A DNA stretch of 61,740 nucleotides, taken from Cnuella takakiae (lineage in GTDB: Bacteria; Bacteroidota; Bacteroidia; Chitinophagales; Chitinophagaceae). The notes under the pieces were generated by a model. That model was not told the DNA's origin. It saw nothing but the letters and a program-made list of their open reading frames with translations, and made no database searches. This document shows positions 13,793-40,017 of the stretch, piece by piece. The stretch covers positions 2,390,486 through 2,452,225 of the forward strand of contig NZ_MTFE01000010.1 of assembly GCF_001953305.1 (NCBI RefSeq), written 5' to 3'. A program made the translations under genes and the position numbers. Numbering within the stretch: the first letter of the stretch is position 1; the number at the start of each line of letters is the position of its first letter.

Positions 13793-13833
13793 TGTACGAA
13801 AATGGGAAGATGTGTCCGGACATGGAAGGACAG
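13793..13833 (-). promoter_or_regulatory. late promoter module P1
   Basis: Reading on the minus strand: CTGTCCTTCCATGTCC (13833-13818), 13 bases, CATTTTCG at the -7 position (13804-13797), four bases, then the ATG at 13792. This is the most divergent of five such modules, but the spacing is identical. It overlaps a plus-strand promoter and a TGTCCGGACA palindrome (13813-13822). Confidence 0.55.
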
Positions 13834-13838
13834 GTAAT

Positions 13839-13846
13839 TATATTTG
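13839..13846 (+). promoter_or_regulatory. TAnnTTTG promoter of the Ntn-hydrolase candidate
   Basis: TATATTTG matches the Bacteroidota -7 consensus perfectly and sits six bases before the ATG at 13853. No clear -33 TTG element is seen. The arrangement implies a very short or absent 5' leader. Confidence 0.5.
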
Positions 13847-13852
13847 ATCCTT

Positions 13853-14596
13853 ATGAAGATGTATCTAGTATTCCTAATTGCCTTTTTTTACCAGTTTAAT
13901 CATGCTTTATGTCAAACTACAATTATTGCAAAAAGAACGACAGATGCAATATATGTGGCGGTAGATAGCAAAACTCAATTGGTAAGTATTGGAAGGAAAG
14001 GTGATGAAGTACATATTGATACAGTGAACATCTGTAAAGCATGGCATAATGGTAAAGTAGGTTTTGCCCTAGCCGGTAGGTATTTGTTTGAATCTAAAAA
14101 AGTAGCATTACAACTTTCCCATTTAACTGATCCTGTAGAGTTGTACAATGCACATGCACCTTTATTTGGAAGAATGTTATTGGATTCCTTGAAGAAAATA
14201 AAGGAAGGCAACCCTGAATATTTCAATTTGCAATTTGGAAAGGACACAGGCGAAGTAGCCAGCATTATTGCGTTTGGATTTCAGGGAGACTCTTTATGCA
14301 TGGTGCAATCCACATTCAATATTGTTTATAATGAGAAAGGCGAACTTGATATTGAGGTAAAGCCAATTATAGAAGATTATGGTGTTTACGCTGCTGGTTA
14401 TTACGATCACATTGAAGAGGATTTGATAAGCCCAGAATTTTGGAGAAAGAGGAAAAGGATTGACCAAGGTTTGAAGGAATTAATAAATAGAGAAGCTAAA
14501 TACCATCCTATGCATGTTGGTGGACCTATTAATATTATCAAAGTTCAAAATGGAACAATAGAGTGGATAACAAAAAATGACGTTTGTATCGAATGA
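13853..14596 (+). CDS. secreted proteasome/HslV-like Ntn-hydrolase candidate (Thr nucleophile?)
   Basis: A 247-residue protein with signal peptide (MKMYLVFLIAFFYQFNHALC). The mature part begins at or next to Thr22-Thr23, and the sequence TTIIAKRTTDAIYVAVD places Asp38 at position 17 counted from Thr22, as in proteasome beta subunits and HslV. Lys62 and a glycine-rich ALAGR (72-76) follow, and VGGPINIIKV (222-231) matches its relative at 9731-10531. Export of a proteasome-like protein would be unusual. The gene is AT-rich, on the plus strand between two minus-strand late operons. The ATG at 13853 is preferred over a TTG at 13844. Its stop overlaps the next start. Confidence 0.65.
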   Translation: MKMYLVFLIAFFYQFNHALCQTTIIAKRTTDAIYVAVDSKTQLVSIGRKGDEVHIDTVNICKAWHNGKVGFALAGRYLFESKKVALQLSHLTDPVELYNAHAPLFGRMLLDSLKKIKEGNPEYFNLQFGKDTGEVASIIAFGFQGDSLCMVQSTFNIVYNEKGELDIEVKPIIEDYGVYAAGYYDHIEEDLISPEFWRKRKRIDQGLKELINREAKYHPMHVGGPINIIKVQNGTIEWITKNDVCIE

Positions 14597-14820
14597 TGGC
14601 TATCCAAATCAATGATGAAGTCTTTCTCAATACCAACGTGTTTGATGATGCCACCCGCTGGCGTAATCACCACATTTATAAACGCATCCTGGAAGAGAGC
14701 CGTTTGGGTATCGTTCAGGGGTGGGTTAAGCAACACAACCAGTGGTGGGTAAAGTTCCCAGGTGTCACGATCCGGGTGGAAGAAAGGAACCTGATCAAGG
14801 TTGAAGCGGAAGCTGATTAG
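14593..14820 (+). CDS. hypothetical small protein coupled to the Ntn-hydrolase candidate
   Basis: A 75-residue protein starting MMAIQINDEVFLNTN (or at the second Met, 14596). The first ATG overlaps the upstream TGA as ATGA. It is Trp-rich (GWVKQHNQWWVKFPG) with a probable beta-barrel-like core. Its 3' end overlaps the convergent tail gene by four bases. No family recognised; it may be a phage gene unrelated to the hydrolase. Confidence 0.6.
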   Translation: MMAIQINDEVFLNTNVFDDATRWRNHHIYKRILEESRLGIVQGWVKQHNQWWVKFPGVTIRVEERNLIKVEAEAD

Positions 14821-16604
14821 CCTATCCGCTTCAACCTTGCTTTTACCTGTCCGTTGTAGGGTATTACATCCGTCATCTGCTCCACCAAAAAGGGAATGTT
14901 CCGGAGCAGTATCACATCATCCCAGCGGAACTCCATCAGCTCAGGCCTTGGCAGTAGTAGCACTCCGCTGCTGATTTCCCCCCTGCTCATGTACTCGAGG
15001 CTTTCCCGGAACCAGTAGGAGACAATGCCCATGTCACTTCCATTCAATTCGTGCTTATATACATTGCTCCAGGGCAGGTCCGGCTCTTCCTGGGTAATAG
15101 TGCTGGCAACAGAAGTGAGGCAAGGATATTTAATCTGGCCTTTGAACCCTGCCTGGCCAGCCTCCCATACCCATCCGCGATGAAACAGCAGGCGCATTGT
15201 CCAGGGCACAAATTCTCCCTGCTTGCCTTCCCAGTTGCCTTCCTGCTCACACATTGGAAACAACCCGTAGAAGTTGCCGCCATTGGTGCGCCATAGGGTA
15301 CGGTAAACCGGCATGGTACTGATACCGGTGGTAATGGTTTCATTGAAGTCTTTGGGTTCGTATGCATGGACACCATCGGCAAAGTGCCCCCACTCATACC
15401 GCTGCTCTTCCTCATTGTACCTGCACTGCCAGTACTGGTTTTCCTTCCAGCAGTAAACAACCTGGTTGAAGTTGCCTTCTGCAGGTCCCATTAGCTCGGT
15501 ATAAGAAAACACCGGGAGGCCAAACTGCACCTTTTCAAAATCGGGTGCAGATGAAAGTCCATCGCTGCCATCCCCTTCATTCTGGAAGGCAAACACCTTC
15601 ACCTCTTCGGAAAAGTCAGAATCCCAAAGTGCTGCCATGTACCGGGTCCAATCCTTTCTTTTACCATAAGCCAGGCCTTTGAGCGGAAACATGCGGCACA
15701 CCCTGGCATTGGAATCAAAGGCAAACCCCCAGTTGTACCTGTTCCGCAGATCGATGATCAGGTTTGCGATCGGGTATTCCGGTGGAACATGGTTGCGGAG
15801 ATCCATCTTGATTGTAGGCAGCGGAGTGTAAGAAAAGTAGGGCTCCTGCTGGACCTGGATAATCTTCTGCCATGTCACACCGTAAAAGGAAGGCATGAAC
15901 AGCTTTTCCCAATGGGTTCCTTCCATGGCAGAAATATCCATCTGCCAGCCTTGTTCACTGAAAACACAATCCAATACATACCTGAGCGACACCTGTGGCG
16001 CCAGTGTGTTGAAGTTGTTGCTGTAATCCAGGGTGCCCTGATTGTTGAGCCGGTTCATCCAGTCGGGAGTGCCTTCCTCTGAATTGCCCGCCCACTTTTC
16101 ATTGCGGATGGGACCAAAGGAATAATCCATGGTACCGGCCAGGGTTTCATGGATATGCTGCCAGAAACCTTTGAAGCTGCTGGCGGGGTTGTTGTTTGTC
16201 CAGGCAAAAGTCCGGACGCCTCCCAATTCCAGATCCTTCAGCTTCTTGCCTTTGATCCGGGTGAAAAAGGAAGAAACACCGGTGAGGAAGTAAGCGGTGA
16301 TGGTGCTCTTGGTGATATCGTTTACGTTCAGCTGGGCTGCCTGGATCACCAGCTCACCGGTGTAACTGAAGTTGAACCCGTCATAAAGTTTTACACCCGG
16401 GATCTTTAGTTTTTCCCTCCTGGTATAGAAGTGGTTTGGAAGGCCCAGGGCTTTTGCATTTTTGGGAGTGTAAAGCAGGGTGAGCGGCATGCTGTGTTCA
16501 TCGGCAAGGCTATCCATACCAAAGAATGGGGACTGCCGCTCCACCTGCGCAGATGTACCTGGCGCCAGGTCTAAAAAGGTTCCGCTGATCTCTATTCCAA
16601 GCAT
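14817..16604 (-). CDS. phage tail-associated protein (595 aa)
   Basis: Last gene of the portal/tail late block. A mixed alpha/beta protein starting MLGIEISGTFLDLAPG, Trp/Tyr-rich, with no transmembrane segment. The N-terminal 100 residues include repeated beta strands such as KIPGVKLYDGFNFSYTGELVI. Its size and place, next to an FN3-containing tail protein, fit a baseplate/hub component of a siphovirus-like tail. No catalytic motif seen. Convergent with the plus-strand gene ending at 14820. Confidence 0.6.
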   Translation of the reverse strand: MLGIEISGTFLDLAPGTSAQVERQSPFFGMDSLADEHSMPLTLLYTPKNAKALGLPNHFYTRREKLKIPGVKLYDGFNFSYTGELVIQAAQLNVNDITKSTITAYFLTGVSSFFTRIKGKKLKDLELGGVRTFAWTNNNPASSFKGFWQHIHETLAGTMDYSFGPIRNEKWAGNSEEGTPDWMNRLNNQGTLDYSNNFNTLAPQVSLRYVLDCVFSEQGWQMDISAMEGTHWEKLFMPSFYGVTWQKIIQVQQEPYFSYTPLPTIKMDLRNHVPPEYPIANLIIDLRNRYNWGFAFDSNARVCRMFPLKGLAYGKRKDWTRYMAALWDSDFSEEVKVFAFQNEGDGSDGLSSAPDFEKVQFGLPVFSYTELMGPAEGNFNQVVYCWKENQYWQCRYNEEEQRYEWGHFADGVHAYEPKDFNETITTGISTMPVYRTLWRTNGGNFYGLFPMCEQEGNWEGKQGEFVPWTMRLLFHRGWVWEAGQAGFKGQIKYPCLTSVASTITQEEPDLPWSNVYKHELNGSDMGIVSYWFRESLEYMSRGEISSGVLLLPRPELMEFRWDDVILLRNIPFLVEQMTDVIPYNGQVKARLKRIG

Positions 16605-16606
16605 CC

Positions 16607-18748
16607 TTATACGTTTGTATTGAACTCCGGTCCGTTAATGAATTGGGAGAAACCGCCACCGGTGCAATTGGTACGCACCCGCCACTCCCAGTTTCTATTG
16701 ACTAATGCATTGCCCATCATTCCGCTTTGCACGTTGTTCTGAGTCAGCCATGCGCCGTTGGTTCCTTTTTCCCGCAGTTGCCATTCATAGCTGGAGGCAG
16801 CCTGAGCTGCTGTCCATTGGAAGATGGGAATGAAGTAACCAAGGATCTGTGCCCGTGCTTTGCCAATGGTTGAACGATCGATGGTAACAGATAGATTGGT
16901 AGGAGGTGTGCAACTGCCCAGCAGGTTGGAGGGAACAAAGGTTTCACCGTATGCGTAGCCGCTGTAGTCACCTGCAGCATTGCACTTGGAGCGCACCCGC
17001 CACTCGTACCCGCCATCCCGAAGGAAGCCGGCTTGTATGGTTGTGGGAGGCGCCGCCTGGGCAACAACCTTGCTTTGCCAGTCGCCGCTGCCGCTCTGGC
17101 GCCATTCCAGGACATATTCCAAAACACCTGGTACCTGCGACCATTTGAACTGCATTGTGGCTGTGGTTTGATCAATGGTCACCAGCTCTGTTTCCAGATT
17201 AATGGGCGCACTGCAGGCTGGAGCAGTGGAAACGATATCGATGCCAGGACCTACCGTATAAGCACTGTAATCTCCATCGCCGCATTTGGTCCGAACCCGC
17301 CAGCTGTACTGGTTGTCAATCTCCAGGAGGATCAGTGCGGTGTTTGTCGCTGCAAAGATGGGAGCGGACCAGGTAGATCCATTGTTCACTTCTAATTCGT
17401 AGCCTTCAGCTGCAAGGACTTCATTCCAGGTAAACCGGTACCGGTGTGCCAGTTGAGCTGGTACCGCTTCAATGTATTCGAACTGGAGTCCGGAGGGAGG
17501 CGTACAAACGGAAAAGTCATCCGGAGGCGCCACCTCTACTGCAGCACCCAGGTTTATGCCCAGGGGTGTAAACTGACTGTTGTTGAAGGTGTATCGCCAC
17601 TGCAGGGGAAAGCTCCAAACTGTATCATCGGTGCCACCCATGGGCTGTGTTTTCTGCATGTGCATCACCCGCAGCCAGCGGCCGGCGATCTCCCGAAGGA
17701 CAAAATCGGAAAGCAGCATATCCTGCATGGCTTCCTGCATGCGCGGGGTATTGAGCATGCCGGCATCGCCTTTGTAAACTTCGTACTTGCTGATGTTGAT
17801 GACCGCCCTTTCGGTTGGCAAAAGTTCGCCGGCGTAATCGCCACCGGCTTTTTCAACTTCGGTGTACTCCCGCTGGATCTCAATATCATAATCGCCACGC
17901 ACCCGCATGCTGTCAATGCCACCTAGGCTATTGGCATAGATAAAAGAAAAGGCATTGTAGTAGGGCCGGTAATCCGCATACAAGCGGTAAGGCTTTGCAT
18001 ACACATTGCCGCCATCATCTTCCACGCTCACATCATAGAACCATACCTTTTTACCAGGCTGCAATCCGAACAGACCCAATTGCTTCAGGCCTGCAGGAAG
18101 ATGAAAAAGCAGCGAAGCGGAGAGTGGAGGGAAAGCCTTGGTCACCGTATCGGTTGCACCATCCTGGTACACAACCCTGGCTTTTAAGCGCAGCTCCGGA
18201 GTGGTGTCATAATGATGAAAATAGGTCAGGTACCGGCGCTCTTCCAACCCTATCAATTCATCTGCAGGCTGCCAGGTAAGGAAAGGCTTATTGGCAACCA
18301 GGTAGGAAACAAAGAAGTTGTTGCGGTCCCATTTTTCTTTTGCCACTCCACCTTTAAGAACGGTGAGCAGGTTGGCGCTGTCGCTATTCCAGGCGGGTGA
18401 GGTGTTCCCCTTTTGTATCTGCCGGTGCCGGATGTAATACTTCCGGATCTGGGTAGTAACTGCCACCACTTCATTGCTCGCAAGTTCGGCAACATGCCAG
18501 TCCATGTAGGAGTTGAGATAGTCCTGGCAGTAGAAGTTAACCACACCGTCCGCACCAGGGTAAAGTGTTTGCCTGGAGATCAGTACACCCCAGTCGGTGT
18601 CCGTTACGGTACCGGTGATGGGAACGGTGCGCAGTTCTATTTCGATGGCACAGCCAGGCGCTTCCGGGTTGGCCACATCAAAGCGGTACAACACAGGGTT
18701 TGCAGCATAGGAGAACTTGTAAGGCCTTTCAAGGATACGGTAGGACAT
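16607..18748 (-). CDS. tail protein with C-terminal fibronectin-III-like repeats
   Basis: A 713-residue protein. The first 410 residues are a tail-specific region. The C-terminal 300 contain three FN3-like domains, each starting with C-x-P/A-P (CTPPSGLQF, CSAPINLET, CTPPTNLSV), with a conserved Y-x-W-R-V-R-T/S-x-C at the end of each domain. Paired Cys residues per repeat are unusual for a cytoplasmically assembled virion part. It probably sits at the tail tip and contacts the cell surface. Two bases separate it from the next gene. Confidence 0.7.
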   Translation of the reverse strand: MSYRILERPYKFSYAANPVLYRFDVANPEAPGCAIEIELRTVPITGTVTDTDWGVLISRQTLYPGADGVVNFYCQDYLNSYMDWHVAELASNEVVAVTTQIRKYYIRHRQIQKGNTSPAWNSDSANLLTVLKGGVAKEKWDRNNFFVSYLVANKPFLTWQPADELIGLEERRYLTYFHHYDTTPELRLKARVVYQDGATDTVTKAFPPLSASLLFHLPAGLKQLGLFGLQPGKKVWFYDVSVEDDGGNVYAKPYRLYADYRPYYNAFSFIYANSLGGIDSMRVRGDYDIEIQREYTEVEKAGGDYAGELLPTERAVINISKYEVYKGDAGMLNTPRMQEAMQDMLLSDFVLREIAGRWLRVMHMQKTQPMGGTDDTVWSFPLQWRYTFNNSQFTPLGINLGAAVEVAPPDDFSVCTPPSGLQFEYIEAVPAQLAHRYRFTWNEVLAAEGYELEVNNGSTWSAPIFAATNTALILLEIDNQYSWRVRTKCGDGDYSAYTVGPGIDIVSTAPACSAPINLETELVTIDQTTATMQFKWSQVPGVLEYVLEWRQSGSGDWQSKVVAQAAPPTTIQAGFLRDGGYEWRVRSKCNAAGDYSGYAYGETFVPSNLLGSCTPPTNLSVTIDRSTIGKARAQILGYFIPIFQWTAAQAASSYEWQLREKGTNGAWLTQNNVQSGMMGNALVNRNWEWRVRTNCTGGGFSQFINGPEFNTNV

Positions 18749-18751
18749 AGC

Positions 18752-19270
18752 TTAATCAAACCATTTACTGGTGTCGGAATTGGTGATATCGGGGAAGGCA
18801 TCATCTTCAATGGTCAGCTGCCAGCCAAAAAGGTTTCCATTGAATGATACCGTTGAAAATGAAAACCTGTTCAGGTCAATATTGGAGAAATTGCTGCAGA
18901 AGCCTTTCTCATGAAACTCCCCCAGCATGAAAGCAATAAAGTCTTCCATTATTTCCATGGTCAGGTCGTAACAGGCCTCCCTACTATCCATATTGGTGGG
19001 GTGATCCACCTTTGAAAGGAACATCAGCTGGTTGGTAGTCTTGCGCTTAACCAGGCTTTGCTTTCCTTCTGTGTACCTGCCCGACATGCCGGCATGCACC
19101 ACGCAAGGGAAGTGGGCCCAGTTGACACAGGCAGCAAGCAGCTCCTCTTCGTCATTCATCCGGTGAAAGCTGTTTTTTTCATGCTTGCCTTCAATCCGCT
19201 TGTGGGCAACCAGCTTGTGCTTATTTGCCAGGCTCTTGAAGTAATCGGACCTGTCTTTAAAAAATCCCAT
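18752..19270 (-). CDS. phage structural protein, hypothetical (172 aa)
   Basis: Starts MGFFKDRSDYFKSLANKHK. It is a compact alpha/beta protein with several His and Phe clusters. It is in the tail block between two larger proteins and its start shares one base with the stop of the upstream gene (TAATG). Likely tail completion or a neck protein, from position only. Confidence 0.55.
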   Translation of the reverse strand: MGFFKDRSDYFKSLANKHKLVAHKRIEGKHEKNSFHRMNDEEELLAACVNWAHFPCVVHAGMSGRYTEGKQSLVKRKTTNQLMFLSKVDHPTNMDSREACYDLTMEIMEDFIAFMLGEFHEKGFCSNFSNIDLNRFSFSTVSFNGNLFGWQLTIEDDAFPDITNSDTSKWFD

Positions 19271-20064
19271 TATGATTGGTTTTGTGCCATCTGGCTTTCA
19301 TAATACTCTTCCTCTTCTTTGATCAGTCCCAGCTCCAGCATGGCTTGTTTGATCTCCATGCATTCAATTCGGTCAACTGGTCCCAGGCGCTCGCCTGCAA
19401 GGCTGCGCATCATGCCGTAAAGGCCTGTGTCGAACTGGCTTTCAAAACCATTTACTACCGGCTCTTTAAACACCTTGGGGTTGTTATCAATTAGGGTGGT
19501 GCGGCATCCGTCATACCAAAGGAAAATGGCTTGCTTCACTGACTCCGGCCACTTCGCTACAATGGCTGCATGGTAGTCCATTTCGTTATGGTTGAAGGGA
19601 ACCCGGATATCGCCATCGGGATTGCGCCTGCGATCGTAACCCTTCTTTGCAGGGCGGTACAGGGCTGCAACCAGGTTGTTGATGGCGCTGTCATCCGGGC
19701 CGTCACTCACCAGGACACGGTAGTGCAGTTCTGAAAAATGGAATTCCTTCATCCGGAGGTTTTCAAAGTCCGCTGCAGGGCCATGGTAGCCGCGGTACTC
19801 CGGGATCCACTGGCAGGTAAAAGGCTTGTGCTCAAAAAGCCAGTCGGTATAGGGCAGGGCTTTTGTCAGCACTTCAGCCGGCAGGAGCTTGAATGAGATC
19901 AGCCCCAGCCCTGCAAGTATTTTAACTGCCAGGGCTTTGCACTTTTCTTCATCGCCACCCTCAAACATCAGGGGCGCCAGGGCAATCGCCTGCTTTGGGG
20001 TCAGTTCCTCAAAGTTATCAGGCATCAGCAGCCTTCCTTTCCTTCCATAGCGGAGGATGATCAT
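19270..20064 (-). CDS. phage protein, hypothetical (264 aa)
   Basis: Starts MIILRYGRKGRLLMPDNFEELTPKQ; a second Met at residue 14 (20025) is also possible, and FEELTPKQ looks like the start of the folded domain. The first ATG overlaps the upstream stop (20061-20064). The protein is helical with conserved-looking Trp/Tyr positions. In Bacteroidota phages similar genes sit between portal and tail genes. Function unknown. Confidence 0.55.
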   Translation of the reverse strand: MIILRYGRKGRLLMPDNFEELTPKQAIALAPLMFEGGDEEKCKALAVKILAGLGLISFKLLPAEVLTKALPYTDWLFEHKPFTCQWIPEYRGYHGPAADFENLRMKEFHFSELHYRVLVSDGPDDSAINNLVAALYRPAKKGYDRRRNPDGDIRVPFNHNEMDYHAAIVAKWPESVKQAIFLWYDGCRTTLIDNNPKVFKEPVVNGFESQFDTGLYGMMRSLAGERLGPVDRIECMEIKQAMLELGLIKEEEEYYESQMAQNQS

Positions 20065-21071
20065 AGACCAAAGATTTTACGGTGGGCGTTTTTGCTTGGC
20101 TCCGGGCAGGTGGGGTTGGCAGGTGCTTCGTAATAGGAGCTGGTGAAGTACTCCGCAAACATGGCATCCGAAGCCATGCTATTGAGGTAGTCCTGGAGCT
20201 TCAGCAGGTAAGCATCGCCGCTCTTGGAGCAACTGTCGTGCAGCATGCTAAGTCCTGCACTCAGGGCCGGAGTATCACCGGCATTAGAGCTGTCTGCGTT
20301 TCCTGCACCCATCAGCAAGGTGAACCCCTCTTCAGTAATTGCAACCGAGCGCTTTTCCACGGCCATGGCCATGGTGATCTGGGAGACTGCCTTGCGGCAG
20401 AAATCCAAAGCAGTGCGCTCTTCCTTTGATGGATCCACTTTGCCTTTCAGTACCTGGTAGAATTCATTTCCGATCGCAGCTGCTACATAGAAATCTTCAG
20501 CCTCGCGGATCAGCGGCCGCAATTGCCAGAAAACCCGGTGCGGCTGATGTAAGCGGAAGTACTTGTTGAACTCTTCTCCGGTGGCAAACAACAGGTTTTC
20601 AAACTCTCGGTACTGGGTGCTTTCCGTCCATGCAGGATAGTGCTCCTTATTATGGATCAGGAAACGGAGCAAAGCTTCAATGCCGTAGGATCCTTTGTCT
20701 GCCAGCTGTTGCAGCACGTTATTATACTCCCAGCGGTGGGCAGCCTGCATATTGTCTGAACTAATGGTCCGAAGTCCGGCATCAGTCAGCTGTGCTTGAA
20801 TCAAAGGCATTTCCAGCATGTAAGCCAATGGCGCCACCACAGTGCGGCATAGCCTAAGCAGTTCGGCGTTCCGCTTTTCGTCATCAGTAAGAGGCCCACC
20901 TGGTTCAACTTCAGCAAGGGCCTTTACCTGGTTGTGGAGGTCAAAGCCCATCACCGGTACCAGGTACCGATCCTCGGCTGCATCCCAATCAGGAAAGGAT
21001 GAAAGCTGGTTTATGAAGTTGATTCGGACAAAGTCGCGTACCAGGTCTTTGTCGTTGGATAGGATTGCCAT
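20061..21071 (-). CDS. phage head/neck protein, DUF6712-like
   Basis: A 336-residue helical protein starting MAILSNDKDLVRDFVRINF. Its layout (N-terminal ...FPDWDAAEDRYLVPVMG, long helical middle) recalls the Bacteroidota phage family I know as DUF6712, which usually lies next to the portal gene. The DUF number is from memory and unverified. It shares one base with the portal stop and overlaps the next gene by ATGA. Connector or neck role is inferred. Confidence 0.55.
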   Translation of the reverse strand: MAILSNDKDLVRDFVRINFINQLSSFPDWDAAEDRYLVPVMGFDLHNQVKALAEVEPGGPLTDDEKRNAELLRLCRTVVAPLAYMLEMPLIQAQLTDAGLRTISSDNMQAAHRWEYNNVLQQLADKGSYGIEALLRFLIHNKEHYPAWTESTQYREFENLLFATGEEFNKYFRLHQPHRVFWQLRPLIREAEDFYVAAAIGNEFYQVLKGKVDPSKEERTALDFCRKAVSQITMAMAVEKRSVAITEEGFTLLMGAGNADSSNAGDTPALSAGLSMLHDSCSKSGDAYLLKLQDYLNSMASDAMFAEYFTSSYYEAPANPTCPEPSKNAHRKIFGL

Positions 21072-22483: not shown

Positions 22484-22803
22484 AGGACGGTTTTTCCGTT
22501 GAATTTTCGGATTAAGCGTATGTGCACCTTCCTGATATCGTTGTTGGCAACGATGCGGATGTTACGGGTGCTGTTTTCGTAATGGTTGGGGGCTTTGCGC
22601 ACACCTTCGGAAGGCGCCTGCAGCTTCTCCTGCTTTTTTCGGTCTTCAGGCAACTGCCATCCGGACTTTTGTCCCTCAGCGATCTCTATGAGTTCGCCAC
22701 CGGTTTTGGTGCGCTGGTTGGCAGTGATGAAAGCAATGGAGAATGTGCTGCCGGAGTCCATCCAGGATAGTACTTCTTTGAGTGTGATAAAGTCCCCGTG
22801 CAT
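22480..22803 (-). CDS. small phage protein preceding the portal
   Basis: A 107-residue protein starting MHGDFITLKEVLSWMDSG. The first 45 residues (AFITANQRTKTGGELIEI) recall small phage proteins found before Bacteroidota portals; the C-terminus is basic (DIRKVHIRLIRKFNGKTVL). First gene of the second late block; its ATG follows the promoter -7 element by four bases. Function unknown. Confidence 0.6.
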   Translation of the reverse strand: MHGDFITLKEVLSWMDSGSTFSIAFITANQRTKTGGELIEIAEGQKSGWQLPEDRKKQEKLQAPSEGVRKAPNHYENSTRNIRIVANNDIRKVHIRLIRKFNGKTVL

Positions 22804-22844
22804 AGTACAAACCTATTTTGCAGGGTCCGGAAGTGAAAGGACAG
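22804..22844 (-). promoter_or_regulatory. late promoter module P2
   Basis: On the minus strand: CTGTCCTTTCACTTCC (22844-22829), 13 bases, TAGGTTTG (22815-22808, a perfect TAnnTTTG -7), TACT, then ATG at 22803. The 16-base upstream box is identical to that of P3. Confidence 0.75.
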
Positions 22845-22860
22845 AAGTCTGCAATAAAAA

Positions 22861-22882
22861 CCCCGCTATTGTGGTAGCGGGG
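22861..22882 (-). terminator. rho-independent terminator of the head/tail block
   Basis: CCCCGCTA, 6-base loop, TAGCGGGG; on the minus strand it is followed by a TTTTT run. It lies downstream of the tape-measure gene and just upstream of promoter P2. Confidence 0.85.
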
Positions 22883-22949
22883 TAGTTCAATGTGCAATTA
22901 GTCAGGGTCGGAAAAAACGGGCGATTGCCTGCTAAAGAAACGGGATGAT

Positions 22950-25974: not shown

Positions 25975-26364
25975 TTACTTAATCATTAAAGCGTTAACGA
26001 TCATGGTGCCCTGGTGATCCGCTACGAGTTCAGCCAGTTTGCCAATGTTTTGTTCAATAGGAGGGTTTAGGAATGGCTTTGCCTTTCGGTTGGTAGATCC
26101 GGCCTGGCTTGCGGTAGTACCGCGGCCAACACCCTTGTGCAGGAACACCGCATGTCTCGGGATTTTGAACGAGATCCGGTTGGTAACACCTCCATTCTTG
26201 CGGAGGGCGGTTTTCAGTGCCTTGCGAAGCGGTACCGGGCTTTTGCTTTTTGGGCTGTGCACCACACCGTGCTTATCCAGTTCTGCCAGGGCAGCGTTTT
26301 TGGTGTCCTTTGTCCAGGCTGCAACATCCTGGTTGTATTTATCGATGTCTTGGGGTCGGAACAT
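25975..26364 (-). CDS. tail completion / HK97-gp10-like protein candidate
   Basis: A 129-residue protein starting MFRPQDIDKYNQDVAAW, chosen over an upstream start that would read through the preceding hairpin. It contains basic patches and a central FKIPRHAVFLHKGVGRG strand pattern, with a C-terminal PFLNPPIEQNIGKLAELV helix, the general layout of tail-completion proteins with an N-terminal helix and a K-P-x-x-P-A-like C-terminal motif. It sits between the tail-tube and tape-measure genes, fitting a head-tail joining role. Moderate confidence. Confidence 0.6.
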   Translation of the reverse strand: MFRPQDIDKYNQDVAAWTKDTKNAALAELDKHGVVHSPKSKSPVPLRKALKTALRKNGGVTNRISFKIPRHAVFLHKGVGRGTTASQAGSTNRKAKPFLNPPIEQNIGKLAELVADHQGTMIVNALMIK

Positions 26365-26382
26365 AGTTTTTAAATGAAAAAA

Positions 26383-26410
26383 GGTTTCCCGCCACGCGGG
26401 GCGGAAAACC
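26383..26410 (-). terminator. internal hairpin with T-runs on both sides
   Basis: GGTTTCCCGCC, 6-base loop, GGCGGAAAACC (10 of 11 pairs). On the minus strand it is followed by a run of T, and on the plus strand by TTTT. It lies inside the head/tail block between the 62-residue ORF and the gp10-like gene, so it may cause partial termination and lower expression of the tape measure. Confidence 0.65.
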
Positions 26411-26455
26411 TTTTGGTTTTCAGGATATGGAATAATCACAGAGAGAGAGCAGAGA

Positions 26456-26644
26456 TCAGGGAGTGGTATCCTCTTCCTGGGGCTTTTCCACCAGGTAGGA
26501 AACACCACTCTTTACCAGGGCAGCTGCGCCGCATTCATTGATATTGCTCAAAGGGCCGTTATAGCAGCCAATATGAACAATGAAATCTTCCGTTGCAGTG
26601 CATTCGTAGCGGTCTGCTACTACCTGCCTGTTAAGCTTCAACAT
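26456..26644 (-). CDS. small hypothetical structural-operon protein (62 aa)
   Basis: Starts MLKLNRQVVADRYECTATEDF. It has three Cys residues and a predicted beta-rich N-terminal half. It follows the tail-tube gene by 58 bases, the position where many siphoviruses keep a tail assembly chaperone, but it is too short for that role on its own. Function unknown. Confidence 0.5.
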   Translation of the reverse strand: MLKLNRQVVADRYECTATEDFIVHIGCYNGPLSNINECGAAALVKSGVSYLVEKPQEEDTTP

Positions 26645-28898: not shown

Positions 28899-28966
28899 CT
28901 TCAGAGGGGTTTAAAAAGGATATTGAATTTTGTTTATGGTATTCGAAGGATCGGATTAGTGAAGCC

Positions 28967-29374: not shown

Positions 29375-30256
29375 GGTTATTTGAGAGGTTTTAGATGAAT
29401 GTTTGGAAATAAGTGCATTGATGGTGGCATCCATGGAAGCCACTTCGTCAACCAGTCCCAGCTCTTGCGCCTGGGCGGCCAGGAAGATCTCACCGGTGAG
29501 GGTCTTTTCTTCATTCAGGGCCTTACCACGGCCGGTCCGTACGGCAGCCAGGAAAAGCTCATTTAATGGATCGAGCAGGTTTTGGATCAGCGCTTTGCCC
29601 TTGCCCTTTTGGGCTTCGGTGAACATCCTGTTTTTATCCGTTGACTTGGTGGCGTAGTATTCATGCACGATCACTCCCATCTCTTCCATGTAGGAAGACC
29701 GGTCCTGGATGGTAAACATGGTACCAATGGAACCAATAAGGTCGGTGCCGGAAGTAGCAACAATGCGATCGGCTTGCGATGCAATCCAGTAGGCTGCGGA
29801 GGCGCATACACCATCCACCATGGCAACAACTTCCTTTTTGCTGTTGCGGATAGCTTCAGCAAGTGCCTGGGTACCGTCAACGGATCCACCAGGAGAGTCT
29901 ACATGCAGCACAATGGTTTTGATGCTTTCAGCAGCTTCCATCTTGCCCAGCTCACCACGGAGGGAAGCAGTGCCAAACCATCCGCAGAAATCACCCTTCA
30001 TAAGGGGACCGCTAACGGGCAGTACTGCAATGGTGCGGCCTTCGTATCCAGGATGCTCTTTTGCTGCGTACCTGTTATCAGGAGCGGCAATGACTGTAGA
30101 TGATAAGGCATAGGCAGCCAACTTTGCACTGGGCCGCTTAACAAATGAAGCCTTACCCTGACGGATGTTTTCGAGCAGGCTGATATATTCAACAGCTGCT
30201 CCCTGTTCAATCAACCAGGGCTTGCCATAAATGCTACTTGCTACTTTGTAATCCAC
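28967..30256 (-). CDS. S49-family prohead protease fused to coiled-coil scaffold
   Basis: A 429-residue fusion. Residues 70-285 are a SppA/ClpP-like S49 protease: VLHVDSPGGSVDGTQAL, the catalytic-Ser segment GVCASAAYWIASQA, and the Lys candidate in STDKNRMFTE. Residues 295-429 are coiled coil (LTTAQARVKELETAQ, LTKANADLTKANAEV), the scaffold part. It would build the prohead and then clear the scaffold, like lambda C/Nu3. The start is GTG at 30256, four bases after the promoter -7 element. A second start at Met295 is likely. Confidence 0.82.
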   Translation of the reverse strand: MDYKVASSIYGKPWLIEQGAAVEYISLLENIRQGKASFVKRPSAKLAAYALSSTVIAAPDNRYAAKEHPGYEGRTIAVLPVSGPLMKGDFCGWFGTASLRGELGKMEAAESIKTIVLHVDSPGGSVDGTQALAEAIRNSKKEVVAMVDGVCASAAYWIASQADRIVATSGTDLIGSIGTMFTIQDRSSYMEEMGVIVHEYYATKSTDKNRMFTEAQKGKGKALIQNLLDPLNELFLAAVRTGRGKALNEEKTLTGEIFLAAQAQELGLVDEVASMDATINALISKHSSKTSQITMKKTWAKISAILGLAAFNSSADLQDEHLDKLEASMADAETRSAELTTAQARVKELETAQAADKTRITELEGQLATANTNLTKANADLTKANAEVERLGKLDAGKFTEAKKDGDEFNDSKVDAAAMDFQQELLSKV

Positions 30257-30297
30257 AATACAAACCTATTCCGGAGCATCTGGAAGTGAAAGGACAG
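30257..30297 (-). promoter_or_regulatory. late promoter module P3
   Basis: On the minus strand: CTGTCCTTTCACTTCC (30297-30282), 13 bases, TAGGTTTG (30268-30261), TATT, then the GTG start at 30256. The 16-base box and the -7 octamer are identical to P2. Confidence 0.75.
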
Positions 30298-30315
30298 GTA
30301 ATGAGGTAATAAAAA

Positions 30316-30337
30316 GCCCACTGTAAAAACAGCGGGC
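30316..30337 (-). terminator. terminator of the lysis block
   Basis: GCCCACTGT, loop AAAA, ACAGCGGGC (one G-U pair in RNA), followed on the minus strand by a TTTTTATTA run. Located 30 bases after the endolysin stop. Confidence 0.8.
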
Positions 30338-30368
30338 GTCTAACGATTGCTTGCCTGAAAAAGGTTGA

Positions 30369-31567: not shown

Positions 31568-31569
31568 AA

Positions 31570-32037
31570 TTATGGCTTTACCTGGTCAAGGTTTTCAGCG
31601 GCCTGAACAGCGGGGCTCCGCTTGATCTGAGCCGTCAGTATCTTATGTGCGGGAACAAAGAAGTATTTAGCAATCGGTGATTCACTGTCAATGGCAATCA
31701 GGTTTTCGAAGATGCTGGTGATTTCGATATATATAATGAACACAACCAGGGCATCACCTAAAATGCTGGCAAGCCGCATTGCATCTTGCATCTTGTGCTG
31801 TTCGGCCGATTGGCTAAGTACAACACTTACTGCTACGGCGCCACCATACTGCACAAACTTGGTGATGGTTTTTCGCAAGCATCCGGATGTACGGGCTTGG
31901 TTCAGCACAACTGCTTTGCTGAAGCCTGTCAAGAAGTCGAGTGTCATAGCAAGAGCCATCCAGATTAGCAGGTTTGTGTTCGGTAAAATGCTCACTTTGA
32001 TGAAAAGCAGGGATACGTAAATAAGGGCGGTTTTCAT
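31570..32037 (-). CDS. phage holin
   Basis: A 155-residue membrane protein, first gene of the lysis block. It resembles the phage_holin_4/toxin-secretion family: hydrophobic N-terminus (MKTALIYVSLLFIKVSI), then LLIWMALAMTLDFLTGFSKAV with the TLDFLTG motif, a basic loop (LRKTITKF), another TM (YGGAVAVSVVLS) and ALVVFIIYIEITSIFENL. It forms the lesion that releases endolysin and triggers lysis. Confidence 0.85.
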   Translation of the reverse strand: MKTALIYVSLLFIKVSILPNTNLLIWMALAMTLDFLTGFSKAVVLNQARTSGCLRKTITKFVQYGGAVAVSVVLSQSAEQHKMQDAMRLASILGDALVVFIIYIEITSIFENLIAIDSESPIAKYFFVPAHKILTAQIKRSPAVQAAENLDQVKP

Positions 32038-32071
32038 TTAAAATTGGATTAGTTGGATTTTTAATACATGG

Positions 32072-32108
32072 CAAAGACCGAGAAATTATCCAAAAAGTGA
32101 AAGGACAG
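32072..32108 (-). promoter_or_regulatory. late promoter module P4
   Basis: On the minus strand: CTGTCCTTTCACTTTT (32108-32093), 13 bases, GGTCTTTG (32079-32072). The -7 element is weaker than in P2 and P3 and there is a leader of about 34 bases before the holin ATG at 32037. Confidence 0.6.
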
Positions 32109-32135
32109 AAGTCTGCAAAAAAGTTGAAGAAAAAA

Positions 32136-32152
32136 GGCTCCGAAATGGAGCC
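32136..32152 (-). terminator. terminator of the tail-fibre block
   Basis: GGCTCC, loop GAAAT, GGAGCC, flanked by AAAA/TTTT on both sides, so it works in either direction. Located 8 bases beyond the tailspike stop. Confidence 0.8.
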
Positions 32153-32159
32153 TTTTAAA

Positions 32160-35063: not shown

Positions 35064-35986
35064 ATAAGTCGTTTGTCTTTGTTCACGCTGAGGGAGGAAA
35101 CCTTGATGAATGCCGGGAAGGTTGTGGTGCCTGTGAGGTGGTAGGCAAAGGATAGGGAGCCTCCCCACCGCTCCGGAACATCACCGTCACCGGTATCGCC
35201 ACACATGCTGGGAGGCATGACAGCTGCCGTCCTGGTATGGATGTACCCAGCATAGTAGGCGCCTGCTTTGAGGATAACGGATGCAGTGAGGGGTTCTGTT
35301 ACATCCGTCCGGTTCACGCCTTTGTAGAGGTCAGGGTTGTTGTTGGTGTTTGCAACCAGGAAGAGGGTGTCAAGGGTGGAGTTAAGGCGGTATATACCCA
35401 TGGCGTTCATGGTGCCGGCTGTGTAGTCGCCCTGCCGGTACTGCCTGAAGCCGATCTTCGATACAACGGTATCTCTGTCCAGGATAACGGCATGCAGCCT
35501 TAAACTGCCCTCTGTGGCCATCGTGGAGTCACCGCTTTCCCATAAGCTGCAGGTGAGGGTAAAGGCCTTCACCCGGCTGCCTAAATACCGGAATGCCTTA
35601 GCAGAAAAGTTGCTGTGCAGGCCAATGCCATACAGGCTATCCACCGGTACTGTGTTGAAGATGCGCCCTGCGTCCAGGAGATCAGTCTTGCGCTGAACAC
35701 TGTCAGCAGGTACAATTTTCAGGTTCTTCAGGTTTTCAATAGTTGCTGAATGCTCCTGGGTAAAAGGGATCTCATTAGGATCAATGTCCTTTTTGCCATC
35801 CATGCGGGTATTCAGATCAGCAATACCAATGTTTGCAGCCCTGATAGAGTCTCTTTGCGCCTGGGTAAGGCCAGATCCACCGCCCCTGCCTATAGGGACA
35901 GGAAATTCTTTGATTGCAGGTACTGTTCCTGCCTGGGCTAATGCCAGGAAGGGCAAAAGAAGGAGAAAGAAAAGAAAGGGTTTCAT
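35051..35986 (-). CDS. tail-fibre-operon protein with signal peptide
   Basis: A 311-residue protein with a clear Sec signal peptide (MKPFLFFLLLLPFLALAQ). The mature region starts polar and helical (GLTQAQRDSIRAANIGIADLNTRMDGKKDI, a collar-fibre-like segment) and continues as a beta-sandwich-like C-terminal domain with one Cys pair (TLTCSLWES, PPSMCGDTGD). It overlaps the upstream gene by ATGA and the tailspike by 13 bases. Probably a fibre tip or adaptor; exported state unexplained. Confidence 0.6.
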   Translation of the reverse strand: MKPFLFFLLLLPFLALAQAGTVPAIKEFPVPIGRGGGSGLTQAQRDSIRAANIGIADLNTRMDGKKDIDPNEIPFTQEHSATIENLKNLKIVPADSVQRKTDLLDAGRIFNTVPVDSLYGIGLHSNFSAKAFRYLGSRVKAFTLTCSLWESGDSTMATEGSLRLHAVILDRDTVVSKIGFRQYRQGDYTAGTMNAMGIYRLNSTLDTLFLVANTNNNPDLYKGVNRTDVTEPLTASVILKAGAYYAGYIHTRTAAVMPPSMCGDTGDGDVPERWGGSLSFAYHLTGTTTFPAFIKVSSLSVNKDKRLIWFE

Positions 35987-36525
35987 ATTTCGTTGAATAT
36001 TGGATTGTCAAAAACTGTTTGTTGGTCGAACTCAGCGCCACTGGCCAGCCAGGCCTGTGGCAGGTTGAAGCAGTTGAAAAGGAACTCAAAGCATTGCACC
36101 TTGCCTTTTGCATCCGGTCCTGTGCGGCCGATCCATGGACCGCCGCACCGGTAAATGAGCTGGTGCACAACCAGGTTGATGTGGTCGTACTTCAGCCCCA
36201 GCTGCAGGGAAGCTGCCTTAAGTACATCAGTGCGGGAGAGCGGGCCGATGTACGGCCGGATTTGTATCCTGCTCCCTTTGCGGTCGATGCCTATTTCAGG
36301 CTGCTCTGCCAGGACAGCCGTGCAGCCACCCTCAGCACTTTCAAACATTACCCATGTGCCCATGATGTTTATGAGCAGCCAGCCATGGTTGAAAGGCTTT
36401 TTGGTGAAGTAGCGGACTGCAGGAGCAGTGAGCCTTGCAATGCCTTTTTTCTTCCATCCATACCGCGCCACACCGACATACACCTTGTCCGGATCCAGCT
36501 GGATTGTTTTACCTCGGTATTTCAT
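35983..36525 (-). CDS. permuted papain-like (YiiX/NlpC-P60-type) peptidase candidate
   Basis: A 180-residue protein within the fibre operon. A His near the N-terminus (KPFNHGWLLINI) and a Cys in the C-terminal half (KVQCFEFLFNCFNLP) occur in the order used by circularly permuted NlpC/P60 proteins, with Glu63 in MFESAEGG as a third polar residue. It might cut peptidoglycan peptides or lipid/peptide amide bonds. No signal peptide visible. ATGA overlaps on both sides tie it to the operon. Confidence 0.55.
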   Translation of the reverse strand: MKYRGKTIQLDPDKVYVGVARYGWKKKGIARLTAPAVRYFTKKPFNHGWLLINIMGTWVMFESAEGGCTAVLAEQPEIGIDRKGSRIQIRPYIGPLSRTDVLKAASLQLGLKYDHINLVVHQLIYRCGGPWIGRTGPDAKGKVQCFEFLFNCFNLPQAWLASGAEFDQQTVFDNPIFNEI

Positions 36526-37046
36526 TCGTCAAGCATGTTGTCTAAAAGGATGGAGCGTTTGTGTTCCAGAAGCAGTCGGTAACCATCCTCCAAGGCCTTT
36601 TGCCGAAGTGCCGCGTACTTCTTTTTCAGCGCATCAACCTGTAGCAGAACCCATGGATGTCGGGCCGCATCAGGAAATACCTTCAGGAGCAGGGCATTGT
36701 TGAAGTCTGCAACCATGCCATCGGACTTTGATAGCAGCCGCTCATAGGTGTCAATGAACTGGCCATAAGTCGTTACCACTTTGATCGTCTGGAAGGTGTC
36801 AACACCATCCCACTTCTTAGCAACCCGTTTCAGGTATGCGCTGTTTTCAGGTGTGGTATTGGGTGCCACTACACCGATGTATCCAAATTGCCATGCTTGG
36901 ATGTTGTTGAAGTGGATGGTGTCACTCTTATAGTCGTGCAGGTCAACAGGTGGCACTGGTGCAACACTGGTGTCCTGATCAGGAGGTTGAGCCTCTGTAA
37001 ATAGGTGGCAAACTGAAATGAGCAAAAGCGTGAGTAGGTATTTCAT
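36522..37046 (-). CDS. secreted protein of the fibre operon, hypothetical
   Basis: A 174-residue protein with a signal peptide (MKYLLTLLLISVCHLFTEAQ) and a mainly helical mature part. The C-terminal 70 residues are strongly helical and basic/hydrophobic (VLLQVDALKKKYAALRQKALEDGYRLLLEHKRSILLD). It is translationally coupled to the papain-like gene. No domain recognised. Confidence 0.6.
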   Translation of the reverse strand: MKYLLTLLLISVCHLFTEAQPPDQDTSVAPVPPVDLHDYKSDTIHFNNIQAWQFGYIGVVAPNTTPENSAYLKRVAKKWDGVDTFQTIKVVTTYGQFIDTYERLLSKSDGMVADFNNALLLKVFPDAARHPWVLLQVDALKKKYAALRQKALEDGYRLLLEHKRSILLDNMLDE

Positions 37047-37066
37047 GAATAAAGGGTTTTATTGGA

Positions 37067-39142
37067 TTAAAGAACACGGCGCCAGAAGGATCCATCCCTT
37101 ATAAACTTCATCCCTGTTCTTGCGGGAATACTTGTTAAGGTTTGATCGTGGTTTTGCGGCTGGTTTGCGTTTACTGATATTGCTGAAGCCGTGGTGTTTG
37201 TCACATTTAAAATGACATTGTCCACTACTGCCGGAAAGCTTACCCCGGTAGCGGTGCCGCCCAACAGAACAAAATGTTCAACGGCAGCCTGGTCAATCAA
37301 AATTTCAGGTGCCCCTGAATTATATACCTGTTTTGAAAACCCAAGTTTCTTAGTGGATGCCATTAGTGCCCCACCTGCTGAGACAACTGCAACCCTATCA
37401 CCATAACCACCGGCAAGACCAGGGAATATGATAGACCCGGACTGCGTTATGTTCATGCGCTGCGTCGAATTGGTGAACAGCGAGAACCCGCTTGCTCCAT
37501 CACCACCTACTGTCACATTTCCACCGAACTGGAGTCCGTAACCATAGGCGCCGGTTACTGAAAGGAAACTACCGGGAAGGGTTGCTACACCATTAGGAGC
37601 TGATGTCAATAAAGTATGATCCCCGTCTATTCCAACATGATACTTACTGTCAGCTCCCCACTTGATCTCCCCATTGAGTATGCCTGATGTTGTGGCTGAT
37701 GCAGCCATGATTAGTGAAGAACCAGTAATGTTTCCTTTCACCCACAGGTTGCCTGAATTATTTAGGGTCATGTTGTGGGTTTCACCTGTTGGAATGTTAC
37801 CGCTGCCGGAAGTACTCCACCAGGCATGGCCACCAGAACTACCCAGCTGTGTCCATTGGGTTCGCCCGTTACCGGTGCCATTGTAAAAGAGCACACCGGG
37901 CAGGTTACCAGGAGTGCCATCCCTTATTGATCCAATCTCACTACCCGAGCGCAGGTATCTTTCCAGAAGGCCGTTTTGGGTTAACCGCATACGGAGAATG
38001 CCGTCATTGTTCCATACCTGTATTGTATCACTTCCTGTATTACTTACATGCGCAGTGTTTCCATCACCGGGTGCTGAATAAATGAGTGGCCAGCTACCAT
38101 TACCCGAGGGTGGAGCATTAATGATTTTACTCCAGTCCAGGCTGGAAATCCATGATGGGTTTGCATAGCTACCAGAAAGGAGTGGATACAGGGAGTCAGC
38201 GAGTGTTTGGGTAAAAGCATCAGTGATTCCATAACCTGCAATGGTTGTAGGCAAACCTGTGAGCTTTGCCCAGGCAAAAGAGCTTAACCACACAGGGTTG
38301 GTATAGGATCCGGAAAGCTGCGGATAACGTGCATCAGCCAGCGTCTGGGTAAATGCATCGGTAATGCCGTATCCGGCAATGGTTGTGGGCTTACCAGTTA
38401 CATCTGTGCCCCACGGATGGGTGTGTGCTGATGGTGTGAATGAGGTTGGAACCCCAGTAAGCTTTGACCAGGCAAGGGAACTTAGCCAGGCAGGATTCGC
38501 GTATGATCCGGAAAGAAGTGGGTACCGTGCATCTGCTGTTGCTTGGGTGAATGCATCTGTGATCCCGTACCCGCCAATAGTTGTTGGATGGTTGAGGATT
38601 TTGGACCAGCCCAGTCCGGTGAGCCAAAGCGGATCATGGTAATCGATGGCCTCCAGGTATTGTTTGCTGTTGCCTGTTGTGTCGAATAGCCACCGGAAGT
38701 AAACATTGCCATTTGCGTCCTTAAAGTCAATGCCGGCAAGCTGTCCGTTCACCATATATGGATCCTGCTGGGATGGCAATGCTGCAAGTTGTTGCTGTGC
38801 CCACCATCCGGATGCAATTGCAGGAAGACCGTTGGCGGATGTGGTATCAGTTGAATTGATACCGCTTCTCCGGACTTTTAGCAGGTTTGGACCTTTTTTC
38901 AGATAGAGGGTATCACCAGTGGTCCAGGCATCATCAACAACGTAATCGAACTCAGTGAGGCCGTTACCCTTGTTCTTCAGGACTGCTCCAGTCCTGCCCT
39001 TGGTGCTGTTCTCCAGTTGAAGTTCAGCCGGAGCGTTACCATTTTGGTTCATGCGAATGATGTCGCCCTGGATCCGGTTAGTTACCTGGGCTTGTGCAAA
39101 GCCCGTAATAAGTAGAAGGAGTAAAAGGATTCTTGTTTTCAT
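37067..39142 (-). CDS. tail fibre with GYGITDAFTQ repeats and signal peptide
   Basis: A 691-residue protein starting with a signal peptide (MKTRILLLLLLITGFAQAQ). Residues 170-345 hold repeated units: a GYGITDAFTQ(A/T) element (three copies) and SGSY(A/T)NP-W-(L/I)-S-S (four copies), as in phage tail-fibre stalks. The C-terminal 300 residues contain head-like beta repeats and end in a short basic tail (GSFWRRVL). It would be the main adsorption fibre. The spacing before the next gene is 20 bases. The signal peptide is not expected in a tail protein. Confidence 0.72.
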   Translation of the reverse strand: MKTRILLLLLLITGFAQAQVTNRIQGDIIRMNQNGNAPAELQLENSTKGRTGAVLKNKGNGLTEFDYVVDDAWTTGDTLYLKKGPNLLKVRRSGINSTDTTSANGLPAIASGWWAQQQLAALPSQQDPYMVNGQLAGIDFKDANGNVYFRWLFDTTGNSKQYLEAIDYHDPLWLTGLGWSKILNHPTTIGGYGITDAFTQATADARYPLLSGSYANPAWLSSLAWSKLTGVPTSFTPSAHTHPWGTDVTGKPTTIAGYGITDAFTQTLADARYPQLSGSYTNPVWLSSFAWAKLTGLPTTIAGYGITDAFTQTLADSLYPLLSGSYANPSWISSLDWSKIINAPPSGNGSWPLIYSAPGDGNTAHVSNTGSDTIQVWNNDGILRMRLTQNGLLERYLRSGSEIGSIRDGTPGNLPGVLFYNGTGNGRTQWTQLGSSGGHAWWSTSGSGNIPTGETHNMTLNNSGNLWVKGNITGSSLIMAASATTSGILNGEIKWGADSKYHVGIDGDHTLLTSAPNGVATLPGSFLSVTGAYGYGLQFGGNVTVGGDGASGFSLFTNSTQRMNITQSGSIIFPGLAGGYGDRVAVVSAGGALMASTKKLGFSKQVYNSGAPEILIDQAAVEHFVLLGGTATGVSFPAVVDNVILNVTNTTASAISVNANQPQNHDQTLTSIPARTGMKFIRDGSFWRRVL
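38090..38640. repeat. direct repeats encoding tail-fibre stalk units
   Basis: Three near-identical blocks of about 40 bases (near 38217, 38355 and 38551, plus-strand GCATC(A/G/T)GT(G/A)AT...) encode the GYGITDAFTQ units; related segments encode SGSYANP. These repeats can recombine and change stalk length. Confidence 0.65.
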
Positions 39143-39156
39143 CAGGATATTGGTTC

Positions 39157-39975
39157 TTACATTATTTCGATAAAGCCAGTAGGATTGCCGCCAAGCCTCA
39201 CCGTTAGTTCGGTAAAAGCTGGAGGCGGTGCATCTACCTCGATGCTGCCGGCATTTGCCTTGTACGGAACCCCGCCGTCTTCAATGAGCCATACCTGCAC
39301 GATCGGGAAGTTGCCAAACCGGTTCTGCCGCAGCGGAGTCCAAGGAATAGAAATGGTGGGTTGGTTTTGGAAGGGGATCGTTTCTTTCTGGGCCATGGTA
39401 TTACCTCCATTGCCGCTGCCATCGCCAGGGCCATTGCCTGGCAAGCCAGAGGCAATAGCATCAGCCGTGAATTGTGGCAGCACATAGGCTTTGCTTATAT
39501 GATTGGTGGAAAAGGAAAACAGGTTTTGAGCAATGTCACCAGGACCAAGGCCGCCCCTGAACTCCGGGTTGAAAGAAAGTGGGCTGTCTTTTGTACCCAC
39601 CAGGCAGTAAAAGCCTCCAGCCCTCATTTTGCCGATGGCCAGGTACTTATGATAAGGCAGGTTTTCGAAGTTAACCCGGCTCTCTGCGCTTTCGCCTGGG
39701 TGGATTCCTTCAATCTTGTGTACATAATAATGACCTGCAGCAGTGCGCTTGAACTCTTCGGAAAAGCCTATGCGGTCACGAGGGACAGCAATTGGTCCAA
39801 GCCACGCAGCGCCGGGACGGATGGACGGTTCATCCACCAGGTATTGGGTTGCTGCATTGATACGCGGCATAACCAATACCTCTTCAACCGGGATAAACCA
39901 GAAACGACAAAAACCACCGTTGTAGGCGGTATTCCGGTGCAATGGTTTTATGCCTGTGTAAGATGATTGGAACAT
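39157..39975 (-). CDS. structural protein of the fibre block, hypothetical (272 aa)
   Basis: First gene of the fibre late block. It starts at 39975, directly after promoter P5; a later Met (residue 36, 39870, MPRINAAT) could be the true start because the first 35 residues look less folded. The central part has a GLPGNGPGDGSGNGG linker, and the C-terminal 70 residues have PFQNQPTISIPWTPLRQNRFGNFP and a final beta strand, a pattern common in Bacteroidota tail-tip proteins. Function unknown. Confidence 0.55.
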   Translation of the reverse strand: MFQSSYTGIKPLHRNTAYNGGFCRFWFIPVEEVLVMPRINAATQYLVDEPSIRPGAAWLGPIAVPRDRIGFSEEFKRTAAGHYYVHKIEGIHPGESAESRVNFENLPYHKYLAIGKMRAGGFYCLVGTKDSPLSFNPEFRGGLGPGDIAQNLFSFSTNHISKAYVLPQFTADAIASGLPGNGPGDGSGNGGNTMAQKETIPFQNQPTISIPWTPLRQNRFGNFPIVQVWLIEDGGVPYKANAGSIEVDAPPPAFTELTVRLGGNPTGFIEIM

Positions 39976-40017
39976 TTACGCAAATGTTGCGCAAGGGCTC
40001 CGGGAGTGAAAGGACAG
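39976..40017 (-). promoter_or_regulatory. late promoter module P5
   Basis: On the minus strand: CTGTCCTTTCACTCCC (40017-40002), 13 bases, AACATTTG (39988-39981, close to TAnnTTTG), five bases, ATG at 39975. Confidence 0.7.

Follow-up and report, generated by a model that had tools for sequence, protein, structure and literature searches.

In phages P2, Mu and lambda, one phage protein (Ogr, Mor/C and Q, respectively) turns on the late operons, which in P2 share repeated sites. The middle promoters of T4 combine a MotA box, near -30, with a -10 element and are used through sigma appropriation. Late-gene switching in phages of Bacteroidota was not described among the matches listed in our search of open-licence papers (bioRxiv being outside the search), and a term search of the articles on Ingeline and Leef (PMC8776804) and on Porphyromonas phages (PMC10367356) did not return the word "promoter". 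Here, we analyze a candidate late-promoter module in a prophage of the Bacteroidota species Cnuella takakiae, within a stretch of 61,740 nucleotides that we call the window (RefSeq assembly GCF_001953305.1, contig NZ_MTFE01000010.1, positions 2,390,486 to 2,452,225). The module consists of a 16-base box, a 13-nt spacer and an octamer resembling the -7 element of the host primary sigma factor. Like the T4 middle promoters, the module pairs a retained host -10 element with a short box that is not palindromic and lies close to the -35 region, but it is found at late genes and its box differs in sequence and place. As for P2, Mu and lambda, we propose a single phage protein for the late operons, and the repeated sites resemble the situation in P2, although the box is here non-palindromic.

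The promoters read by the primary sigma factor of Bacteroidota have a TTTG at -33 and a TAnnTTTG at -7. The module has their -7 element, in the same position with respect to the predicted start, but it lacks the -33 TTTG, carries a phage box at -40..-32, and has a degenerate -7 element in many copies. The sigma-A box TAnnTTTG of Flavobacterium psychrophilum is reported at -12 to -5 (PMC9723704), and according to PMC7366714 Bacteroides fragilis was deduced to have a TTTG near -33, which was not found in Flavobacterium johnsoniae.

The first-pass annotation had placed five modules on the minus strand, at the head of the terminase, portal, head, lysis and fibre blocks. All five are present, each with the box, exactly 13 nt and the octamer (Table 1), and the genes of the blocks they head could be assigned, those of the fibre block by place and length only. 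The 16-mer is indeed identical in two copies, which match CTGTCCTTTCACTTCC without mismatch (portal and head). Two more had been described as nearly identical; the three remaining copies differ at one (fibre), two (lysis) and three (terminase) positions. The TAnnTTTG-like element is likewise uneven, being exact in two copies, approximate in two and devoid of the A in the lysis copy. With up to three mismatches, the 16-mer has six matches in the window, against 0.50 expected, and none of 100 shuffles reached six. The sixth match (58407-58422) lies outside the prophage and is in line with the chance expectation. The distance from the start of the box to the start codon is 41 or 42 nt in four of the five copies, a regularity that had been overlooked.

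In the whole genome (5.7 Mb), the three matches to the 16-mer with at most one mismatch all lie inside this prophage. When up to three mismatches are allowed, the pattern has 87 matches and its reversed form 77, hence host genes carry no excess of the module, and its occurrence at many unrelated host genes is not observed. Across 98 genomes, this one included, the full 16-mer with at most one mismatch has 18 matches, against 19 for the reversed control. It is thus partly specific to this prophage, and we rejected the exact 16-mer as a signature of the class: the consensus holds within the prophage, and conservation elsewhere is limited to about TGTCCTTTC. A 15-base pattern matched at least 120 stretches across viral contigs. 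One of these contigs is the same prophage (100% protein identity), and contig 3300021090_000036 has two matches among those listed. The lack of enrichment of the 16-mer across the relatives' genomes is what one would expect of chance or of an unrelated repeat, an explanation that we consider negligible in view of the strand bias, the register with start codons and the -7 element, and the recurrence in diverged phages reported below.

Relatives were picked by their portal protein: of 294 genomes from the same bacterial family, eight have it, counting the present one. The module recurs at the late blocks of the seven other prophages, with portals 33-49% identical. All seven have a box-like 16-mer (two to four mismatches) upstream of the portal block, and more copies elsewhere on the late strand; the box and its fixed distance to the -7 element are conserved at orthologous operons. 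To these eight we added four prophages found later, and defined sites as [N]TGTCCTT with an open-frame start codon at 40-44 nt. This identified 33 sites on the late strand of 11 of the 12 prophages, none being found in prophage G444, and no site on the opposite strand. One of the 33 (late-strand position 44038, about 17703 in the window) is inside a gene and probably arose by chance, as did the match at 58407.

The start codon is at exactly 41 nt from the start of the box in 27 of the 33 sites. When it is taken as +1, the conserved core is TGTCCTTTC at -40..-32, that is, the box occupies the place of the usual -33 TTTG, whose absence had been proposed from the window alone. In columns that played no part in the selection, all 27 sites carry A at -11 and T at -7, 26 carry T at -8 and 20 carry G at -5; a pyrimidine is found at -1 in 26 and the T at -12 in only six. 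Position 10 of the box is C in 18 of the 27, with little conserved beyond. The conserved A, TT and G thereby fall in the sigma-A register given in PMC9723704. Because the spacing is exactly 41 nt in so many sites, the start codon is also the predicted transcription start, and the mRNA would be leaderless: we consider it very probable that transcription in these copies begins there, or a base or two away, so that the first gene of each would be read from a leaderless mRNA. This likeness to leaderless mRNAs comes from the register only. Such mRNAs make up 5.5% of those of F. psychrophilum according to PMC9723704, and about 3.7% of the 5' untranslated regions of Bacteroides thetaiotaomicron are under 10 nt according to PMC7366714. 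Leaderlessness itself is not new, as phage transcripts are described as often leaderless in PMC5312081. In a phylum without Shine-Dalgarno signals and rarely leaderless, leaderless late starts would directly test how ribosomes choose their start.

The fixed distance to the start codon could also suit an RNA-level translation signal placed 41 nt ahead of start codons, with no promoter involved. This is very improbable: where the start codon is 46-72 nt from the box, most copies retain the octamer at a fixed distance, so that the box goes with the -7 element rather than with translation; moreover, the box directly follows terminator-like hairpins in three of the five copies of the window. In another reading, an alternative sigma factor, either phage-encoded or a host factor of the extracytoplasmic function type, would use the box as its -35 element and read both it and the downstream element alone. 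The spacing of the two is that of a two-part promoter, and TAnnTTTG is weak at its first T, but A-11, TT-8/-7 and G-5 form the element of the host primary sigma factor and there is no distinct -10. The candidate regulator described below has no sigma-factor match either, and the other phage genes were partly scanned, with no search aimed at alternative-sigma genes. We regard this reading as improbable.

To assess generality, we built a matrix from 22 sites of eight genomes and ran it on 21 other loci (587 kb), which are partly redundant (L213 with L209, L218 with L219, L223 with L224). It yielded 35 late-strand matches, against three, one and two on the opposite strand and in two reversed controls; 17 had a start codon at +41, against one, none and none. 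Leaving out one genome at a time among the eight gave 33 late-strand matches, against four, three and four in the controls. Across 13 loci, the late strand has 51 copies of the motif GTCCTTT and the opposite strand 12; A-11 and TT-8/-7 accompany 33 of the former and one of the latter, and a start codon at +41 accompanies 19 (five of them among the 27 sites) and none, respectively. Over 23 phages, allowing a one-base shift and using for 6H, G924 and G977 altered patterns picked after seeing them, there are 118 late-strand boxes, 79 of them with a -7 element, and 42 on the opposite strand, three with it. Named phages with the module are Cellulophaga Ingeline_1, Polaribacter Leef_1, Porphyromonas 026a, gut phage MT835542 and Bacteroides BT-TP2. 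Neither the Flavobacterium phages FL-1 and FCV-1.01 nor the gut contig MT835603 have a box with a -7 element; matrix scores in the first two reach 12-15 on both strands, and FL-1 has one TGTCCTTT lacking the -7 element. From these comparisons we infer that the modules are, almost certainly, a genuine class of phage late promoters.

The module was also found in MZ447863 (L211), a phage filed under Microcystis. It has a Bacteroidota-type late promoter and regulator, and the sequence upstream of its boxes matches that of prophage G698. Hence, its host may belong to Bacteroidota rather than to Microcystis.

Seventeen protein families of the window are common to at least three of the seven relatives, and only one of them lies outside the late blocks. 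This small orphan protein is encoded just ahead of the late region in the window and in most relatives, and its stop codon is 15 bp ahead of the first late box, that of the fibre block. BLAST found it in five of the seven portal relatives, and a profile located it in G125, where it lies on another contig, 198 bp short of the contig end. As the region of G258 stops at a contig end, that genome is outside the count, and the protein is present in all six testable relatives, phages that had been picked without it. It was also found by profile A2 in all six box-bearing phages picked by terminase or protease, with E-values of 3e-18 in Leef, 4e-10 in the phage filed under Microcystis, 6e-9 in gut phage MT835542 and 5e-8 in Porphyromonas, and weakly in Ingeline (1e-4) and 6H (4e-4). 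It is absent from the three box-less phages (FL-1, FCV-1.01 and MT835603). An independent six-sequence profile matched 11 of 12 targets, BT-TP2 being missed, and none of the three controls. Many of the targets of profile REG had themselves served to build it, with only Ingeline, BT-TP2 and 6H outside it.

Searches with the regulator alone gave matches in 7 of 396, 9 of 395 and 3 of 395 genomes, 12 of which were new. Nine of the genomes so picked have at least 3.8 kb downstream: five carry TGTCCTTT boxes (G113, G576, G377, G818 and G698), three carry altered boxes and one carries none. The altered box is ACGTCCTA or ACATCCTA in G924 (four copies, the -7 register being part of the search), GTGTCGCGG in G977 (six on the late strand, none opposite, with TT at -8/-7 in five) and TGTCCTAT-like in G1119 (seven on the late strand, none opposite, five with a -7 element). 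Phage 6H was initially scored as module-free, a score overturned on reading its upstream regions, which carry the altered box ATGTCTTAAA in four late-strand copies, with none opposite. In all four cases the altered boxes accompany diverged regulators. The contigs of G908 and G922 are too short for a box count, a single box-like site (score 14.6) immediately follows the regulator in G725, and gut contig MT837390 has the regulator with a weak box. Phage BT-TP2 (PQ571279) was picked through its regulator, gp8 (5501-5989), which is 44% identical to that of the gut phage; it has three boxes with a -7 element (at 17976, 25810 and 32315), and the predicted transcription start of the last falls on the start codon. 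Among viral contigs found by the regulator, boxes occur in the Porphyromonas group L213-L220, with a weak one in L222, and L223-L225 have an altered box with a start codon at +41.

The regulator had no convincing match in Pfam, PHROGs and NCBIfam (best E 0.013) or among PDB sequences (best E 0.054), no sequence match to solved proteins at E below 0.05, and none to sigma factors. It did not match MotA or AsiA by sequence, nor by fold among the matches listed, and, at E up to 1, none of 11 family members matched Pfam families of the Ogr, Mor-C or Q type. As modelled by AlphaFold, the window protein (predicted local distance difference test, pLDDT, 77; predicted template modeling score, pTM, 0.71) and the Porphyromonas member (pLDDT 88, pTM 0.81) agree on a strand, two helices, a strand, a long helix and two helices. 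The models match no solved fold (best E about 1). The best viral fold match, the Leef_1 homologue (E 1.7e-8), was rejected as not independent, the sequence itself being in the alignment. The family is basic, with isoelectric points of 8.3-10.4 in 27 entries, some of them repeated.

The orphan protein is a good candidate for the activator, and probably is the activator, but a number of observations weigh against this picture. Portal and adaptor families co-occur with the box as widely (12/12, with 0/3 controls), so shared descent can explain much of the association between regulator and box. The homologues of Ingeline and 6H sit inside the late region, and the protein has no recognised DNA-binding domain. 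No box was found in the 3.8 kb downstream of the regulator-like gene of G444, nor in the regulator-bearing gut contigs MT835875, MT837356 and MT837818, the latter two being short. The altered boxes were defined only after the sequences had been read, A-11 is present in only two of the six G977 copies, and the full TAnnTTTG occurs in only two of the five window copies. On a different account, the promoter class is real but the box is bound by some other protein of phage or host, and the orphan protein only shares descent with these phages, e.g., as an accessory of head assembly or DNA packaging. The breadth of structural-gene co-occurrence, the two genes within late regions and the lack of a recognised DNA-binding fold fit such an account. 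The orphan protein is nevertheless the sole shared family outside the late blocks, its gene lies just ahead of the first late box, its members are basic, and altered boxes track its diverged members. We hold this account to be unlikely, though more credible than an alternative sigma factor.

We favor a phage activator. The first-pass annotation suggested joint control of all late genes by a phage-specific activator or sigma-like factor, and the comparisons, by inference, fit this claim: the module is not at host genes, diverged relatives have it at the same operons, and a single small orphan protein accompanies it. An activator is likelier than a sigma-like factor, because the host -7 element is kept and the regulator has no sigma match. 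Under this model, which we consider likely, host RNA polymerase with its primary sigma factor would recognise the -7 element, and the 9-bp non-palindromic box TGTCCTTTC would stand in for the -33 element. The small phage protein, encoded just ahead of the first late promoter, would bind the box and recruit the polymerase, and the fibre, lysis, head, portal/tail and terminase blocks would be switched on together. A broader proposal, to which we give even chances, is that a widespread family of activators without a known fold has co-evolved with TGTC-type boxes, takes over the -33 contact of the Bacteroidota primary sigma factor and drives synchronous leaderless transcription of the late operons in many temperate Bacteroidota siphophages. 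If this is true, the diverged regulator-box pairs would be ready-made orthogonal switches. A promoter class that can be read from sequence would give operon maps, gene starts and late or early status in phages most of whose genes lack names.

The prophage itself corresponds to a predicted provirus of IMG/VR of 41,690 bp, with a 100% identical protease, which spans about -100 to 41589 of the window (left end extrapolated). A recombinase, putatively a large serine integrase, ends at 1489. The late genes are on the minus strand, and the fibre-like genes had no family match above the curated cut-off.

Table 1. Positions in the window of the modules, the candidate regulator and other features of the prophage.
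Feature	Position	Strand	Remarks
Fibre-block box	40002-40017	-	1 mismatch; octamer AACATTTG at 39981-39988; ATG 39973-39975, box-to-start 42 nt
Lysis-block box	32093-32108	-	2 mismatches; octamer GGTCTTTG at 32072-32079; 71 nt from box start to the start codon of 31570-32037
Head-block box	30282-30297	-	exact; octamer TAGGTTTG at 30261-30268; GTG 30254-30256 at +41
Portal-block box	22829-22844	-	exact; octamer TAGGTTTG at 22808-22815; ATG 22801-22803 at +41
Terminase-block box	13818-13833	-	3 mismatches; octamer CATTTTCG at 13797-13804; ATG 13790-13792 at +41
Candidate late activator, 181 amino acids	40033-40578	-	open frame to 40737; start 40578 inferred from homologues
Fibre-like genes	39975-32160	-	assigned by place and length
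Holin/endolysin block	32037-30369	-	
S49 head protease to tape measure block	30256-22950	-	
Portal/tail block	22803-14817	-	
Terminase block	13792-10965	-	large subunit by tblastn
Terminator-like hairpin	32132-32156	-	upstream of lysis-block box; T-run on minus strand (scan listed stem on +)
Terminator-like hairpin	30316-30337	-	just upstream of head-block box
Terminator-like hairpin	22860-22883	-	just upstream of portal-block box
Repressor-like gene	7856		
Primase	3472-5967		

Some further sequence features were observed. A near-palindrome, TGGACGAATTGTCCA, lies on the minus strand at about 40621-40635, about 57 bp ahead of the inferred start of the regulator, and is possibly the operator of this gene. 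A 15-pair terminator-like hairpin at 26379-26414 falls within the open frame called at 25975-26508, and the gene probably starts further downstream because of it. The sequence GCAGACTT immediately precedes two boxes on the minus strand (at 22845-22854 and 32109-32118), and it also precedes a box-like TTGTCCTGCCAC near 40080 on the same strand. At the terminase block, a palindrome, TGTCCGGACA, spans the end of the box. The motif GGACA is found between box and start codon in five of eight terminase-block promoters, those of the window (13801-13833), G121, G125, G300 and G025, against one of 25 other sites. It often belongs to an inverted TGTCC/GGACA pair, and is perhaps a second operator or a packaging site.

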